Source: Aquisphaera giovannonii (GTDB lineage: Bacteria; Planctomycetota; Planctomycetia; Isosphaerales; Isosphaeraceae). From it: DNA of 64,000 nucleotides. Both the position numbers and the translations under genes were made by a program. Positions 41,256 through 46,229 of this stretch are shown in pieces; within the stretch, counting starts at the first letter, position 1; each line of letters opens with the position of its first letter. The DNA is taken from assembly GCF_008087625.1 (NCBI RefSeq), contig NZ_CP042997.1:8990001-9054000 (forward strand), written 5' to 3'. The notes under the pieces are model-generated. The model worked only from the letters and a program-made list of their open reading frames with translations. It made no database searches and was not told the origin of the DNA.

Positions 41256-41404
41256 GACGGCCCCCCTTCCGGCGATCCTCGTTGAATAATATGCAATCCG
41301 ATACAACGGGGGAACCCGACTCCGCCGACGCGACGCGCGAACGCGCGACCCACTTTATAGAAAGAGATGGGCCCGCGCCCGCCGCTTCCCGCATAGTAGT
41401 CGCG

Positions 41405-43075
41405 ATGGCTACGAGGGCGGTGACGGGGCGGACGACCATGCGAAGCGGACAGCCGGGCTCGGCACTGAGGCAATTGCGGGCCCTGTTCGCGGCGGGCACG
41501 GCGGCCGCGAGGACCGACGGCGAGCTGCTGGCCCGCTACGCGGCCCGCCGCGCGGAGTCGGCCGAGGCGGCGGCCTCGGCGGAAGACGCCTTCGCGGCGC
41601 TCGTGGATCGCCACGGGCCGATGGTCTGGGGCGTCTGCCGCCGCGTGCTCGGCGACGCCCACGAGGCCGAGGATGCCTTCCAGGCCACCTTCCTGATCCT
41701 CGCCCGCAAGGCCGGCTCGGTCCGCGTGGACGGCTCGCTCGGCCGCTGGCTCTACGGCGTCGCCCACCGCGTCGCGGCGAGGGCCCGGGCCGAGTGCCGG
41801 CGTCGCGAGGGCTGGATGGAACGGGCCGAGCCGGAATCCTCGGACGATCCCGCCGCGGCGGCCGAGGCGACCGAAATTCGCGCCGTGGTCGGCGAGGAGC
41901 TCGACCGCCTGCCGGCCAAATACCGATGCCCGCTCGAGCTCTGCAACCTCCTGGGGATGACCTACGAGGAGGCCGCACGCCAGCTCGACTGGCCCGTGGC
42001 CACGGTCAAGAGCCGGCTCGCCAGGGGCCGCGATCGGCTGCGGCGGAAACTCGTCCGCCGCGGCCTGGCACCGGCCGCGGCGGGGGCAATCACATCCGTC
42101 GCCGCCGAGGCCCGGGCGGCCGTCCCTGCCCATCTCGCCCACGCCACGGCCCGGGCGGCCGCGATGCCCGGGGCCGTCGCCCTGCCGGCGTCGATCACCA
42201 ACCTCTCGGAAGGAGTGAGCAGCATGATGATGTGGGAGAAACTCCGCCTCGTTGCGGCCGTGGCCGTCGTCGCCCTCGGGCTGTCGGCCCACGCCATCTC
42301 TCGGGCGGCACCCGGCGGCGAAGCCGGGGTGCCGCAGCCGCCGCGGGCCGAGGGGCCCGGCCCCGCGAAGGCCGGCGACCAGCCCGCGGACCCCCGCTGG
42401 ACCCGGACGCTCCCCTGCGGGGCCACGATCGAGATCGTGGGCGTCTCCGACTGCCCCACGGGGCCGACCACCTGGTGGCGACCCGACGGCTCGCCCTGCC
42501 CGGCCCTTTGCGACCCCGCGGACGGCCGCATCCAGTTCGACTCGGGGACGCTGAGGGCGGTCGTGGCCCGCGTGGCCAACGTCCCCGACGGGGCCCAGAA
42601 CGACTGGTCGATCGACCAGGGCGGGAGCTCGATGCGGCGTCAGGCCGTCCGGGGCGGGAAGCGAGTGCCCGGGCTGAGCGAGGTGATCACGGTGCTGCCG
42701 TCCGAGGCCGCATTCGCGACGGCCCGGTTCGAGGTCGCCGCGGGGCCCTGGAAGACGATGCAGACGTGGGGCCCATCGCCGGGCGCCCGCGGCTCGCGGG
42801 ACGCCTCCTATGTCTTCAGCGCCCCGATCCCGACCCGCGAGGGGACGGCGCTCTCGGTCAGCCATAACATCCAGGACAAGTCGGTGCGGCTCATCGCGAT
42901 CGAGGTCGGCGGCCGGGAGGTGCCCGGCAAGGTGTTGTCCGGATCCGGCGCGAGCGACTTCCACCAACTCACCGTGGAATTCGACCTCCTCCCCGCGCGC
43001 ATCACGGAATTCCGCCTCCAGGCCCGGCCGTTCGAGAAGGTCGATATCGCGGGCATCGCCCTCAGGCGGAGGTGA
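41405..43075 (+). CDS. ECF sigma factor with membrane segment and C-terminal domain
   Basis: The 556-residue protein starts with an ECF sigma factor. Region 2 (about 55-120) has FAALVDRHGPMVWGVCRRVL and DAFQATFLILARKAG. Region 4 (about 165-215) has LDRLPAKYRCPLELCNLLGM and TVKSRLARGRDRLRRKL. A hydrophobic segment follows (about 280-300, LRLVAAVAVVALGLSAHAI). The last 250 residues form a beta-rich domain with no enzyme motif. Planctomycetes have such sigma factors fused to putative sensors. The C-terminal part is probably outside the membrane and could control the sigma domain, which is inference. Confidence 0.85.
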   Translation: MATRAVTGRTTMRSGQPGSALRQLRALFAAGTAAARTDGELLARYAARRAESAEAAASAEDAFAALVDRHGPMVWGVCRRVLGDAHEAEDAFQATFLILARKAGSVRVDGSLGRWLYGVAHRVAARARAECRRREGWMERAEPESSDDPAAAAEATEIRAVVGEELDRLPAKYRCPLELCNLLGMTYEEAARQLDWPVATVKSRLARGRDRLRRKLVRRGLAPAAAGAITSVAAEARAAVPAHLAHATARAAAMPGAVALPASITNLSEGVSSMMMWEKLRLVAAVAVVALGLSAHAISRAAPGGEAGVPQPPRAEGPGPAKAGDQPADPRWTRTLPCGATIEIVGVSDCPTGPTTWWRPDGSPCPALCDPADGRIQFDSGTLRAVVARVANVPDGAQNDWSIDQGGSSMRRQAVRGGKRVPGLSEVITVLPSEAAFATARFEVAAGPWKTMQTWGPSPGARGSRDASYVFSAPIPTREGTALSVSHNIQDKSVRLIAIEVGGREVPGKVLSGSGASDFHQLTVEFDLLPARITEFRLQARPFEKVDIAGIALRRR

Positions 43076-43142: not shown

Positions 43143-44498
43143 TCAGCCGGCGGGCCGGCGACCGAGCAAGTGCTCCGCCAGGTCGCGGGCCTGGACGCGG
43201 AGCTCGCGGACGGCGGTGGTCTCCCAGAGGCCTTCCTTCAGGAGGGGGCCGATCGCGAAGACGCGATCGCTGGGGTTCCCGTCGCGGTCGAGGAGCGCCC
43301 CGGACGCCCCGGCGTCCAGTCCGAGCGCCAAGGGGCCGGGGCGGGCGATCCCGCGGCCGAAGAGCGAGCGGACGAGCATGGGGGCGCGGTCGCGGATGTC
43401 CCGCGACGGCCCCGTGCAGTTGATCAGGCGGCCGAAGGCGAGGACCTCGGAGTCGGCCCGGCCCCGGCCGCGGACGCGGACCGCGAGCGAGTCGCCGTCG
43501 GGCTCGATCGATTCGACGCGGCCCGCGACGACCCGGAGCCGGCCGGCGAGCGTCGCCGAGGCGAGCACCTCCTCGACCTCCGGCGCGATCCGGTGGCGAT
43601 GGACGTCCCATCGCGAGGCGAGGTGGCGGAGGAACCGATCGCGCTCGGGGACTTCGAGCGAACGCCAGACGTCCTGGGCCACGGGCCGGATGCCGTCGAT
43701 CACGGACCGCCAGTCGCCCCCCTCGGACCGGCATCGATCGGCCTCGGCCCGGACGGTCCGCAGCAGCGCCCGGGCCGTCGCCGGCCTCCCCGCGGCCAGC
43801 ACGTGCGGGCGGGGCGGGCCGGCCGACGGGCGGTGGGCCTGGGGCAAGGAGCCATGCCGCGAGATCGCCACGATCGGGCCGCGATGCCCCTTCGCCATTG
43901 CCTCGACGACGAGGTCCACCGCGGTCAGGCCGGTGCCGATCAGGCCGATCGGCTCGTCCCCGGCCAGCCCGTCGAGCGCGCCGGGCTCCCACGGGTTGGG
44001 GACGTAGCCGCGCAGGCCGGGCGTAATGGCCATGCCGGCGGGCTCGCCGGGCGGCGGGTTGCCCAGGGCCAGGACGACGCGCTCGGCCTCGATGGCGCGG
44101 CCGCCGGAGGTCCGCAGCACCAGCCGCGGGCCGGCCTCGAGGTCCACGACCTCGTCGCGGATGAGGTCCACCCGCCCCGTCGAGGCCGCGTCCCCGAGGA
44201 GGCCCGCGAGGTAGTCGCCGTAGGTCATCCGGGGCGCGAACGTGCCCGCGCCGGCCTCCGGGTCCCGGCCCCTCAGCCAGTCGAGGAAGTGCGACGGCTC
44301 GTCCGGCAGCGCGCTCATCAGGCCCGCCGGGACGTTGAGCAGGTGACGCTCGCAACGCGAGCCGTAGGCCGCGCCCCGCGCGAGGCGGTCCCCCTTCTCG
44401 GCGAGGACGACGCGCACGCCCCCGGCCCTCGCCAGGTGGACGGCCACCATCGTGCCGCTGAACCCCCCGCCGACGATCGCCACCCTCAGCTCTTCCAT
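43143..44498 (-). CDS. FAD/NAD(P)-binding oxidoreductase
   Basis: The 451-residue protein begins LRVAIVGGGFSGTMVAVHLA, a dinucleotide-binding Rossmann motif, followed by an acidic strand end and ERHLLNVPAGLMS. A second GxG motif (IGLIGTGLTAVDLV) lies near 190. This fits the FAD-NAD(P)-binding (NAD_binding_9) group, often single-component oxidoreductases. The ATG at 44498 is preceded by GGAGGAAGTC. It overlaps the end of the cysteine dioxygenase gene by 13 bases, so the two are likely co-translated. A role in sulphur amino acid oxidation is inferred from that pairing only. Confidence 0.85.
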   Translation of the reverse strand: MEELRVAIVGGGFSGTMVAVHLARAGGVRVVLAEKGDRLARGAAYGSRCERHLLNVPAGLMSALPDEPSHFLDWLRGRDPEAGAGTFAPRMTYGDYLAGLLGDAASTGRVDLIRDEVVDLEAGPRLVLRTSGGRAIEAERVVLALGNPPPGEPAGMAITPGLRGYVPNPWEPGALDGLAGDEPIGLIGTGLTAVDLVVEAMAKGHRGPIVAISRHGSLPQAHRPSAGPPRPHVLAAGRPATARALLRTVRAEADRCRSEGGDWRSVIDGIRPVAQDVWRSLEVPERDRFLRHLASRWDVHRHRIAPEVEEVLASATLAGRLRVVAGRVESIEPDGDSLAVRVRGRGRADSEVLAFGRLINCTGPSRDIRDRAPMLVRSLFGRGIARPGPLALGLDAGASGALLDRDGNPSDRVFAIGPLLKEGLWETTAVRELRVQARDLAEHLLGRRPAG

Positions 44499-45097
44499 GA
44501 CTTCCTCCGCGAAGGACGGGCCGGGGCGATCGGGCCGGCGGCCGGATGGGCCAGGTCCACCCGGACGGTCGCCGGGCGTTCCTGGATCAGGCGGTCGTTG
44601 GCCGCGAGCGTCGTCTCGTCGAGCGCGTGATAGCGCCACCCTGACGGGGGCGGCGAGTACACGTGGAGCGTCACGAGGTCCTCGCCCGGGGCCTGGAGGT
44701 TCGCGAGCTGGTGCGTGCAGCCTCCGCAGCAGCCGATGACCGCCCCCGCCGCGGACGACTCCGCGCGGACCGGCGCGAGCTGCCCGCTGGCGGCCCGCCG
44801 ATAGCGAGTCTCCGTCGCCTCCCCGTGGACCACGAGCACCACGCATGAGGATCCGTGATGGTCGTGGATCGGGCTGGCCTGCCCGCTCCGCCAGCACATC
44901 ACGAACGCCTCGTAATGCGGCCGGGAATGGATCGCGGCACGGCGGTAGGCCCGGTCGTCGAAGCCGATCGCGTCGGCCAGGTCCTCGACGCTCAGGTCCA
45001 ACCCGGCCAGGCCCTGTTTCAGGACCGCCAGCGGGATGGCCCGTTCGTGCGCATCCCACAGCCGGAGAAGCTCCGCGAGTCGCGAACGCCCATCCAT
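44486..45097 (-). CDS. Cysteine dioxygenase family protein
   Basis: The 203-residue cupin has the iron ligands of cysteine dioxygenase: His78 and His80 in SPIHDHHGSS and His129 in CTHQLANL. Arg59 (HSRPHYEAF) matches the Arg that binds the cysteine carboxylate, which favours cysteine over 3-mercaptopropionate. Cys85 and Tyr147 sit where eukaryotic enzymes form the Cys-Tyr crosslink; most bacterial enzymes lack that Cys. The reaction is cysteine plus oxygen to cysteine sulfinate. It overlaps the FAD oxidoreductase downstream and lies next to a LysR regulator on the same strand. Confidence 0.88.
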   Translation of the reverse strand: MDGRSRLAELLRLWDAHERAIPLAVLKQGLAGLDLSVEDLADAIGFDDRAYRRAAIHSRPHYEAFVMCWRSGQASPIHDHHGSSCVVLVVHGEATETRYRRAASGQLAPVRAESSAAGAVIGCCGGCTHQLANLQAPGEDLVTLHVYSPPPSGWRYHALDETTLAANDRLIQERPATVRVDLAHPAAGPIAPARPSRRKSWKS

Positions 45098-45213
45098 GAC
45101 CTACCTCCATGCCCCGGTCGCCACGCGACGACATGCCCGCGATCAGACGCCTTCGCATCCCGGCCCGACCTGAGATGCCTCTCCTATCGTGAAACGGTTC
45201 GCCGGCCTAGAGG

Positions 45214-45314: not shown

Positions 45315-46229
45315 TCAGTTGAGGTGGGACTCTGGGTCCAGGCCCACTTCCGCCAGCAGCTCGCGGGCGAAGGCCAGGGCGGCCGGGGAGAGGCTCCGGT
45401 CGGAGAGCCAGGCGAGGCCGGAGTCGAAGGCCAGCGGCGGCGCGTCGAGCTCGAGGGTCGCGAATTCGCCGGAGCGGAGCTCCGCGCGGACGCTGGCCGG
45501 ATGGACCAGGGAGACGGCATCCCCCTCGCGGATCATCGCCTTGACCATCGTCATCGAGGTCGTGTCGATCTTCCGGGCCAGCACCGACGGGTGGGCCCTC
45601 GTCCCGGCCTCCAGCCATCGCAGGATCGACTCGGGCATGTGCGGGCCGATCAGGGGGTATGCCAGGAGCGCCGCGCGCCCGGGCTTCTCGCGCAGGGCGA
45701 GCGGATGGCCGGCGCGGCACACCCAGATCCCGGGCTGGGACGGGAACTCGACGACGCGGAATTCTCGGCGTCCCCGCACCGGCTCGCTATTGGCGACCGA
45801 GAGGTCGATGCGGCCGCTCCGCAGCGCCTCGGGCAGGGCCTCCCAGGGCTCGACGTGGAGCGTGATCCGGAGGCCCGGGTGCGCGCGGAGCACGCGCCCG
45901 GCCACCTGGCCGAACCAGACGTCCGCCGCATACGGGCCGGCGCCCACCGACAGCTCGCCGGCGTCCAGGGCCGTCGTCTGCTCGATCGCCCGGGCCAGCC
46001 CGTCGATGGCGTCCACGACCTGCCGGGCCGCCTTCGCGGCGAGCGTGCCGAAGACGGTCGGGGCCACGGCCTTGCCGTGGCGGTCGAAGAGCCGCACCCC
46101 CAGCTCCCGCTCGATCCCCTGGATGCTCTTCGAAAGCGCCGGCTGCGTGACCCGCAGCGATTCGGCCGCCTTATGGAAATTCCCGCATTCGACCAGCGCC
46201 AGCACATGGCGGAACTGCCTCGCCTCCAC
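45315..46229 (-). CDS. LysR-family transcriptional regulator
   Basis: The 304-residue protein has the N-terminal winged helix (FRHVLALVECGNFHKAAESL, RVTQPALSKSIQGIERELG) and a LysR substrate-binding domain (about 90-295, GELSVGAGPYAADVWFGQVA). The GTG start is preceded by GGGAGGAATCGGC. It lies 218 bp upstream of the cysteine dioxygenase gene on the same strand, so it may control that operon in response to a sulphur or other small metabolite. The effector is unknown. The other side is divergent from the SnoaL-type gene at 46416. Confidence 0.9.
   Translation of the reverse strand: MEARQFRHVLALVECGNFHKAAESLRVTQPALSKSIQGIERELGVRLFDRHGKAVAPTVFGTLAAKAARQVVDAIDGLARAIEQTTALDAGELSVGAGPYAADVWFGQVAGRVLRAHPGLRITLHVEPWEALPEALRSGRIDLSVANSEPVRGRREFRVVEFPSQPGIWVCRAGHPLALREKPGRAALLAYPLIGPHMPESILRWLEAGTRAHPSVLARKIDTTSMTMVKAMIREGDAVSLVHPASVRAELRSGEFATLELDAPPLAFDSGLAWLSDRSLSPAALAFARELLAEVGLDPESHLN

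Follow-up and report, generated by a model that had tools for sequence, protein, structure and literature searches.

What does a cysteine dioxygenase (CDO) with the Cys-Tyr pair of the mammalian enzymes do in a bacterium, and does it work alone? The question is raised by a gene in the present stretch of Aquisphaera giovannonii DNA (all 64,000 nucleotides of which are called the window below), which an earlier note had described as a CDO with a "eukaryote-like" Cys/Tyr pair. Judged by its sequence, the window enzyme is a bacterial CDO whose Cys/Tyr pair is native and which is tied to a flavin monooxygenase-like partner. The new finding is this flavoprotein; its overlapping gene, overlooked in the earlier note, says more about function. 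The coding sequences and signals concerned are as follows.

44486 to 45097, minus strand: coding sequence of the CDO, 203 amino acids, with the ATG at 45097-45095 and the stop codon at 44488-44486
45104 to 45108, minus strand: GGAGG, 6 nt upstream of the ATG of the CDO gene and by its sequence the likely ribosome-binding site of that gene
43143 to 44498, minus strand: partner gene, encoding an FAD/NAD(P)-binding protein (PF13454) of 451 amino acids with a class B flavin monooxygenase-like fold
44486 to 44498, minus strand: 13-nt overlap, in which the 3' end of the CDO gene contains the flavoprotein ATG (44498-44496)
44504 to 44508, minus strand: GGAGG within the CDO gene, by its sequence the likely ribosome-binding site of the flavoprotein gene

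The earlier assignment to the CDO family was borne out by both profile and fold. With the CDO_I (PF05995) profile, the window protein scores 49.3 bits (cut-off 23), and no other gene in this 10.5-Mb Isosphaeraceae genome matches CDO_I; a scan with NCBIfam returned no name for the protein. Its AlphaFold2 model, made with 65 aligned sequences, has a predicted local distance difference test (pLDDT) score of 89.0 and a predicted template modelling (pTM) score of 0.81, with a weak C-terminal tail. Among solved structures, the model comes closest to rat CDO (Z 22.1, 175 aligned residues) and Bacillus subtilis CDO (Z 21.7), followed by 3-mercaptopropionate dioxygenase (19.8), ergothioneine dioxygenase (17.0) and mercaptosuccinate dioxygenase (16.5), while plant and animal N-terminal cysteine oxidases do not exceed 15.1. 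The counterpart in Aquisphaera insulae is 80% identical, and the ratio of nonsynonymous to synonymous substitution rates (dN/dS) of 0.20 between the two points to purifying selection. No relatives were confirmed in viral contigs.

There is good support for a coupling of the CDO and the flavoprotein. The flavoprotein gene of A. insulae likewise has its ATG inside the end of the CDO gene, and the flavoprotein is also under purifying selection (dN/dS 0.22). A profile search of the loci found the flavoprotein directly after the CDO in at least 12 genomes (the window, L032, L035, L036, L038, L061, L062, L064, L065, L066, L068 and L120), which is a lower bound because for 80 loci the flanking sequence was limited to about 0.5 kb. 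A weak flavoprotein match in L162, made of two short pieces some 2 kb away (E 6e-4), was not counted. In seven of the 12 loci (L035, L061, L062, L064, L065, L066 and L068), the CDO and the flavoprotein are joined in one reading frame. These fused frames, 722, 690, 647, 659, 649, 715 and 698 amino acids long, are spread over three families (f1, f94 and f3); the frame lengths obtained for the CDO half and for the flavoprotein half agree in all seven, and Pfam finds both domains in each of the three that were scanned (L035, L061 and L062). Eleven of the 12 linked CDOs have Cys at the position seven residues after the first iron-binding His (+7), and the remaining one, L068, has Ser.

When the linked CDOs and three decayed clade-mates were constrained to form one clade, the constraint was not rejected (approximately unbiased test, p-AU 0.733) and its likelihood was higher than that of the free search, the group having been named after the tree was seen. 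A single origin of the CDO-flavoprotein pair is thus allowed. In a 35-row tree of the flavoproteins, the linked ones and the unlinked L174 and L176 form a clade of 14 rows, with 21 unlinked ones apart.

The CDO with and without its partner can be compared in the family of the window's own genome. The search of 45 Isosphaeraceae genomes found a CDO match in 10 and a flavoprotein in 8, of which 5 adjoin the CDO. Within the window's clade, the catalytic residues are intact in all five CDOs with an adjoining flavoprotein, and some of them have been lost in each of the three CDOs whose genomes contain no partner match (L037 in G304, L045 in G335 and L056 in G341, all from one Isosphaeraceae genus). 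The substitutions are H129R and C85S in the first, Y51C and Y147C in the second, and H78R, R53E, H145L and Y147S in the third. The chance of such a 5-versus-3 split is 1 in 56 by counting alone. G357, with an intact CDO and no partner, was left out of this count because it falls into the clade of sulfite oxidase-type CDOs described below. A weak CDO match in G388, a possible fourth remnant, was not confirmed on re-check and was dropped.

The active site of the window CDO can be laid out by alignment with the mammalian enzymes, in which the roles of the iron-binding His residues and of the crosslinked Cys and Tyr are known.

44858 to 44866, minus strand: codons of His78-Asp79-His80, with iron ligands 1 and 2
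44711 to 44713, minus strand: codon of His129, iron ligand 3
44843 to 44845, minus strand: codon of Cys85, counterpart of rat Cys93 (the crosslink Cys)
44657 to 44659, minus strand: codon of Tyr147, counterpart of rat Tyr157 (the crosslink Tyr), in YSPP
44939 to 44941, minus strand: codon of Arg53, counterpart of rat Arg60 (the carboxylate-binding Arg)

In the alignment to human CDO1, H78, H80 and H129 coincide with the three iron His residues, and C85, H145 and Y147 with C93, H155 and Y157, respectively. Residue roles in mammalian CDO are set out in the accessible portions of PMC8050391 and PMC4019311. H78, H80 and H129 are invariant in the 65-row alignment A2, and the Tyr at position 147 is nearly so, Gly-type homologues included (140 of 142 overall). 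The earlier note had correctly placed Cys85 seven residues after the first iron His and Tyr147 inside YSPP. It had also named Arg59 as the residue fitting a cysteine substrate. An Arg is indeed found at that position, but it is not the substrate Arg: rat Arg60 aligns with Arg53, and Arg is kept at position 53 in 146 of 155 homologues versus 12 of 155 at position 59. In 3-mercaptopropionate dioxygenases of the Gln type, a Gln replaces the carboxylate Arg. None of the 155 homologues has Gln at position 53, and the window CDO, with its Arg53, does not appear to be an enzyme of this type.

Two peculiarities of the site are recorded here in their own right. Positions 44711-44731 of the window (residues 123-129) encode CCGGCTH, which puts three Cys residues shortly ahead of iron ligand His129; A. 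insulae retains Cys123 and Cys127, and among the other relatives compared only Cys123 is found, in L035. In three Cys-type CDO homologues (L067, L071 and L072), Phe or Tyr replaces the substrate Arg while the other site residues are intact, which makes them candidates for a different thiol substrate.

How unusual is a Cys at +7 in a bacterial CDO? According to the common view, as given in the accessible part of PMC8050391, eukaryotic CDOs are crosslinked and bacterial forms work with an unmodified Tyr. PMC4019311, in the portion available, likewise calls the crosslink Cys prototypical for eukaryotes and absent from many bacterial CDOs, and the earlier note held that most bacterial enzymes have Gly at this position. 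In PMC8503633, the use of the crosslink is linked to the fed state of mammals, which is said to be absent from bacteria. We examined two samples. For the family sample, 294 genomes belonging to the phylum were searched with the Pfam CDO_I model (110 genomes with a match, 114 places), a query that gives the sample no bias to the window gene. The class sample was taken from 397 genomes of the class with the window protein as the query (42 with a match, 44 places) and therefore favours the window's kin. The +7 residue was counted from the anchored first His in rows cut to at most 90% identity, and rows with the loop length of the window CDO between the first His and the +7 position are referred to as in register.

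Among the 69 in-register rows of the family sample, there are 34 with Cys, 25 with Gly, 4 with Ser, 3 with Asn and 3 with Ala, and all 34 Cys rows also carry the Tyr. Another 34 rows have a loop that is one residue shorter (the H-D-H-x-x-W-G type), with 23 Gly, 10 Cys and 1 Ser. The class sample has Cys in 38 of 41 in-register rows. In the two samples pooled, 70 of 108 in-register rows have Cys and 26 have Gly, the Cys share being 63/94 at an identity cut-off of 70% and 30/45 at 50%; 68 of the 70 Cys rows also have the Tyr, and the full set of Cys, Tyr, Arg and the three His residues is present in 64 of the 108. As the pooled count is biased and the family sample gives 34/69, we rejected the idea of a Cys majority in the phylum; about half of its in-register CDOs have the residue. 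The claim about Gly is not borne out by the in-register rows of the family sample, where Cys is ahead; once the short-loop rows are counted as well, Gly is the commoner residue, with 48 of 103 rows versus +7 Cys in 34.

The presence of Cys at this position is not due to chance. Among the 155 columns of alignment A2 that are filled in at least 70% of rows, column 85 is the most Cys-rich, with Cys in 55 of 65 rows as compared to a mean of 2.1% in the others, a figure that is favourable because the sequences of A2 were hand-picked among in-register ones and include many near relatives. Other phyla were represented by plasmid matches (Vibrio, Priestia, Burkholderia and Microcystis) and by PDB sequences. 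Two Vibrio CDO proteins (L144 and L146; Gammaproteobacteria) contain HDHLNT[SA]C and HVYSPP and hence a native Cys/Tyr pair, and the CDOs of Priestia and B. subtilis have Gly at +7. The pair is "eukaryote-like" in its placement, which is that of the mammalian enzymes, but the term misleads about its distribution: it is common in this bacterial phylum, the Vibrio proteins share it, and human CDO1 belongs to another clade. In other words, the pair is not a eukaryotic oddity.

Several of the homologues with the shorter loop show Cys residues of a different kind. In the H-D/G-H-x-x-W-C homologues (L100, L107, L111, L114, L123, L124, L129 and L137; also L231, L233 and L234), a Cys is located one residue earlier than in the CDO, where relatives have Gly, and a second, shifted Cys-Tyr pair is possible. 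In short-loop homologues L085, L092, L102, L104, L118 and L137, a Cys is found two residues past the active-site Tyr (Y-G-C).

The descent of the enzyme was followed in a 115-row and a 63-row CDO tree, both without 16 later-added places, several of which are Gly-type. Of these 16, 14 yielded a CDO frame, one of which was too incomplete for scoring. With the trait residue masked, the Cys label requires 8 changes on the 115-row tree versus a mean of 34.3 for shuffled labels, a clustering that is helped by related rows. In the 63-row tree, which is read unrooted and in which one sequence over a 120-residue stretch stands for the eukaryotes, human CDO1 is part of a 12-row clade with planctomycete sequences (support 97/97), 11 of which rows, the human one among them, are Cys-type. 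A supported branch (97/93) separates this clade from the window gene, so that the window CDO does not group with the eukaryotic one. A eukaryotic import of the window gene by horizontal transfer was discarded as not supported by the trees. The Cys/Tyr pair occurs on both sides of the branch and is hence either old or has arisen more than once.

A crosslink between Cys85 and Tyr147 is likely, as far as the residues can tell. A single mutation reportedly suffices for crosslinking in B. subtilis CDO. PDB entry 4wvz bears the title "artificial crosslinked thiol dioxygenase G95C variant from Pseudomonas aeruginosa" and, going by this title, a bacterial scaffold given a Cys there can crosslink. We regard as rather doubtful the alternative, in which Cys85 is present but uncrosslinked and Tyr147 acts unmodified, as in the Gly-type bacterial enzymes. 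It agrees with the unmodified Tyr ascribed to bacterial forms in the available text of PMC8050391 and with the slow formation of the crosslink even in mammals noted in that of PMC4019311. The engineered Pseudomonas enzyme speaks against it, and so does the retention of Cys and Tyr together in 68 of the 70 Cys-type in-register homologues, albeit weakly because the Tyr is near-invariant in the Gly-types too. With Cys in about half of the phylum's in-register homologues and Gly, Ser, Asn or Ala occurring naturally in others, this native +7 series offers a way to ask what the crosslink is for.

What might the partner do? Its model (pLDDT 89.8, pTM 0.90) best matches the aspartate N-hydroxylase FzmM (Z 28.9, root-mean-square deviation 2.9, 437 of 451 residues, 22% identity), followed by other N-hydroxylases (27.7 to 26.0), YpdA (26.1), flavin-containing monooxygenases (25.4) and thioredoxin reductases (24.5). 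The first ten structural matches are amine N-hydroxylases or monooxygenases aligned over 375-437 residues, counting SsDesB, which we take to be one of them. With the flavoprotein alone, a sequence search of the PDB returned nothing at E 0.001, whereas a 24-row flavoprotein profile ranked FzmM first (E 9.1e-12). In FzmM, according to the accessible text of PMC10404684, aspartate is bound by an arginine cluster and Asn62 is located at the catalytic centre. The aligned residue of the partner is N55, which is invariant in all 35 relatives. In the region of FzmM Arg276, Asn413, Arg416 and Arg577 the residue alignment is unreliable; the partner has conserved Arg residues of its own (R264, R271, R288, R301 and R303). 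The CDO-linked flavoproteins share W263, R264 and H300 (12/12) and R288 (11/12), and the 23 unlinked ones mostly have Pro, Gly/Ala, Ile and Glu at 263, 264, 300 and 288. These linked-type residues could reflect the substrate or only descent. Homologues of the flavoprotein occur in 554 plasmid records, and in three of the eight neighbourhoods picked for reading (Sphingobium, Nostoc and Mesorhizobium; L213, L214 and L220) sulfonate genes are nearby, namely those for alkanesulfonate monooxygenase or a sulfonate transporter.

A second kind of fusion bears on the substrate of the CDO. In planctomycetes, CDOs of the Cys type that are sisters of the present ones carry a fused molybdopterin sulfite oxidase-like domain: all five proteins scanned (L044, L046, L049, L053 and L054) have PF05995, PF00174 and PF03404, and the profile finds such a fusion also in L050 and in L063, the latter a partial sequence. 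In L039, L042, L043 and L051, a separate sulfite oxidase-like gene directly follows the CDO. Many of the plasmid proteins that match this domain are annotated as sulfite oxidase. One genome, G522, holds both systems, the sulfite oxidase type in L042 and the flavoprotein type in L064. Since sulfite arises during cysteine-sulfinate breakdown (accessible text of PMC4019311), these fusions speak for cysteine as what the Cys-type lineage acts on, and they would unite cysteine oxidation and, probably, that of sulfite in one protein. In a literature search, which had most subscription journals outside its reach, we recognised by title or abstract no description of either the flavoenzyme or the sulfite oxidase fusion. 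Both provide direct, testable links from a bacterial CDO to the next steps.

Taken together, it is fairly probable that the window encodes an iron CDO of the bacterial Cys-type lineage, likely with a Cys-Tyr cofactor, which forms a unit with an overlapping flavoprotein that is proposed to oxidise its product. The family, the active-site residues, the predicted fold, the conserved overlap and fusion, and the loss of residues without the partner can be read from the sequences directly; from these we infer the cysteine substrate, the formation of the crosslink, the chemistry of the partner and the order of the steps. Fe(II) held by His78, His80 and His129 would bind L-cysteine, with its carboxylate on Arg53, and O2, and the product would be cysteine sulfinate. 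While turning over, the enzyme would most likely also build the thioether cofactor from Cys85 and Tyr147 by autocatalysis, as the mammalian enzyme does. Cysteine sulfinate has SO2H where aspartate has COOH, and because of this resemblance it is proposed as the substrate of the flavoprotein. The latter, being class B flavin monooxygenase-like, would use NAD(P)H and O2 to oxidise it further, either on N, like FzmM acting on aspartate, or on S, which would give cysteate. N-hydroxylation would lead towards a nitroso or oxime product. The full picture of a two-enzyme, partly fused cysteine oxidase, in which a crosslinked CDO is followed by a monooxygenase that re-oxidises the sulfinate and the Cys-Tyr pair is an old bacterial trait, is offered tentatively. 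If it is true, the pair in the human CDO1 clade and in distant bacterial clades alike is not a eukaryotic invention. The literature search, with the same restricted reach, did not find such a two-step route of cysteine oxidation.

Several observations weigh against this proposal. FzmM Arg13, a member of the aspartate-binding cluster, aligns in the profile alignment with Ser14 of the partner, and substrate binding must therefore differ from that of FzmM at least there. The Ser of the Ser-His-Tyr triad is replaced by Thr in the window CDO (Thr143-His145-Tyr147), Thr being the commonest residue at position 143 (98 of 142 homologues, with Ser in 39). The loss pattern comes from 8 related genomes and may represent only two or three independent events. 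A profile scan of the eight plasmid stretches found no encoded CDO, the 35-row flavoprotein tree contains 23 that are not linked to a CDO, and in G302 and G504 the partner clusters with the linked type and has no adjacent CDO. The occurrence of the flavoprotein family without CDO, together with a partner seen in at least 12 of only 135 non-redundant CDOs, would also suit a stand-alone CDO for cysteine catabolism, the overlap being operon packing without a shared pathway. The conserved overlap, the seven natural fusions in three families and the catalytic residues lost in three partnerless clade members make this distinctly unlikely.

The flavoprotein might instead be a reductase, which reduces cystine or another disulfide for the CDO or keeps its iron ferrous. 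Bacillithiol disulfide reductase YpdA is close in structure, and thioredoxin reductases are not far behind. YpdA, however, covers just 313-315 residues, less than any of the ten N-hydroxylases and monooxygenases at the top of the list, and the counterpart of FzmM Asn62 is invariant, which renders a reductase unlikely. It is improbable, too, that the dioxygenase acts on another thiol such as 3-mercaptopropionate, mercaptosuccinate, ergothioneine or cysteamine. Its fold is common to the dioxygenases of the first three, but the Arg at the rat Arg60 position, here and in nearly all homologues, the CDOs at the head of the structural matches and the sister CDOs fused to sulfite oxidase domains all favour cysteine. 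The oxidation of cysteine by the CDO and of its product by the flavoprotein hence remains our preferred reading.

Other genes flank the pair. One of them lies upstream on the same strand.

45315 to 46229, minus strand: LysR-family regulator, 217 nt from the CDO gene

In A. insulae, a tblastn search of the 5 kb that precede the CDO found no match to this regulator; its membership is doubtful for this reason, and we dropped it as a member of the conserved unit. On the other side, a gene for an ECF-type (extracytoplasmic function) sigma factor with a long C-terminal extension (window positions 41282-43075) converges on the CDO-flavoprotein pair. Sulfite oxidase-like genes and pyridoxal phosphate (PLP) decarboxylases are present elsewhere in the genome, unlinked to the CDO.

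Compared to known systems, the window CDO shares with mammalian CDO type 1 (rat 4pix and 2b5h, human 6bgf) the three-His site, the +7 Cys, the SHY-type Tyr, the carboxylate Arg and the fold, but it is only 18% identical in the structural alignment, has Thr for the triad Ser, belongs to a different clade and is overlapped by a flavoprotein gene. B. subtilis CDO YubC (3eqe, 4qm9) is likewise a bacterial Arg-type CDO of the same fold (Z 21.7), with Gly at +7 where the window CDO has Cys. The P. aeruginosa G95C variant is also a bacterial dioxygenase with a Cys in the loop after the iron His and was deposited as crosslinked; its Cys is engineered and the enzyme was deposited as a 3-mercaptopropionate dioxygenase, whereas the Cys of the window CDO is native. 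FzmM of Streptomyces (8cp2, 8cp5; PMC10404684, in its accessible part) is the nearest solved relative of the partner by both structure and profile. The two share the Asn62 counterpart, the FAD/NADP folds and a helical substrate domain, and they differ in length (451 amino acids in the partner versus 601), in the Arg13 counterpart that the partner lacks and in the partner's location beside a CDO. Finally, the planctomycete CDO-sulfite oxidase proteins have the same Cys-type CDO domain and a partner that is similarly fused or adjacent, but there the partner is molybdopterin sulfite oxidase-like, whereas in the window it is a flavoprotein.

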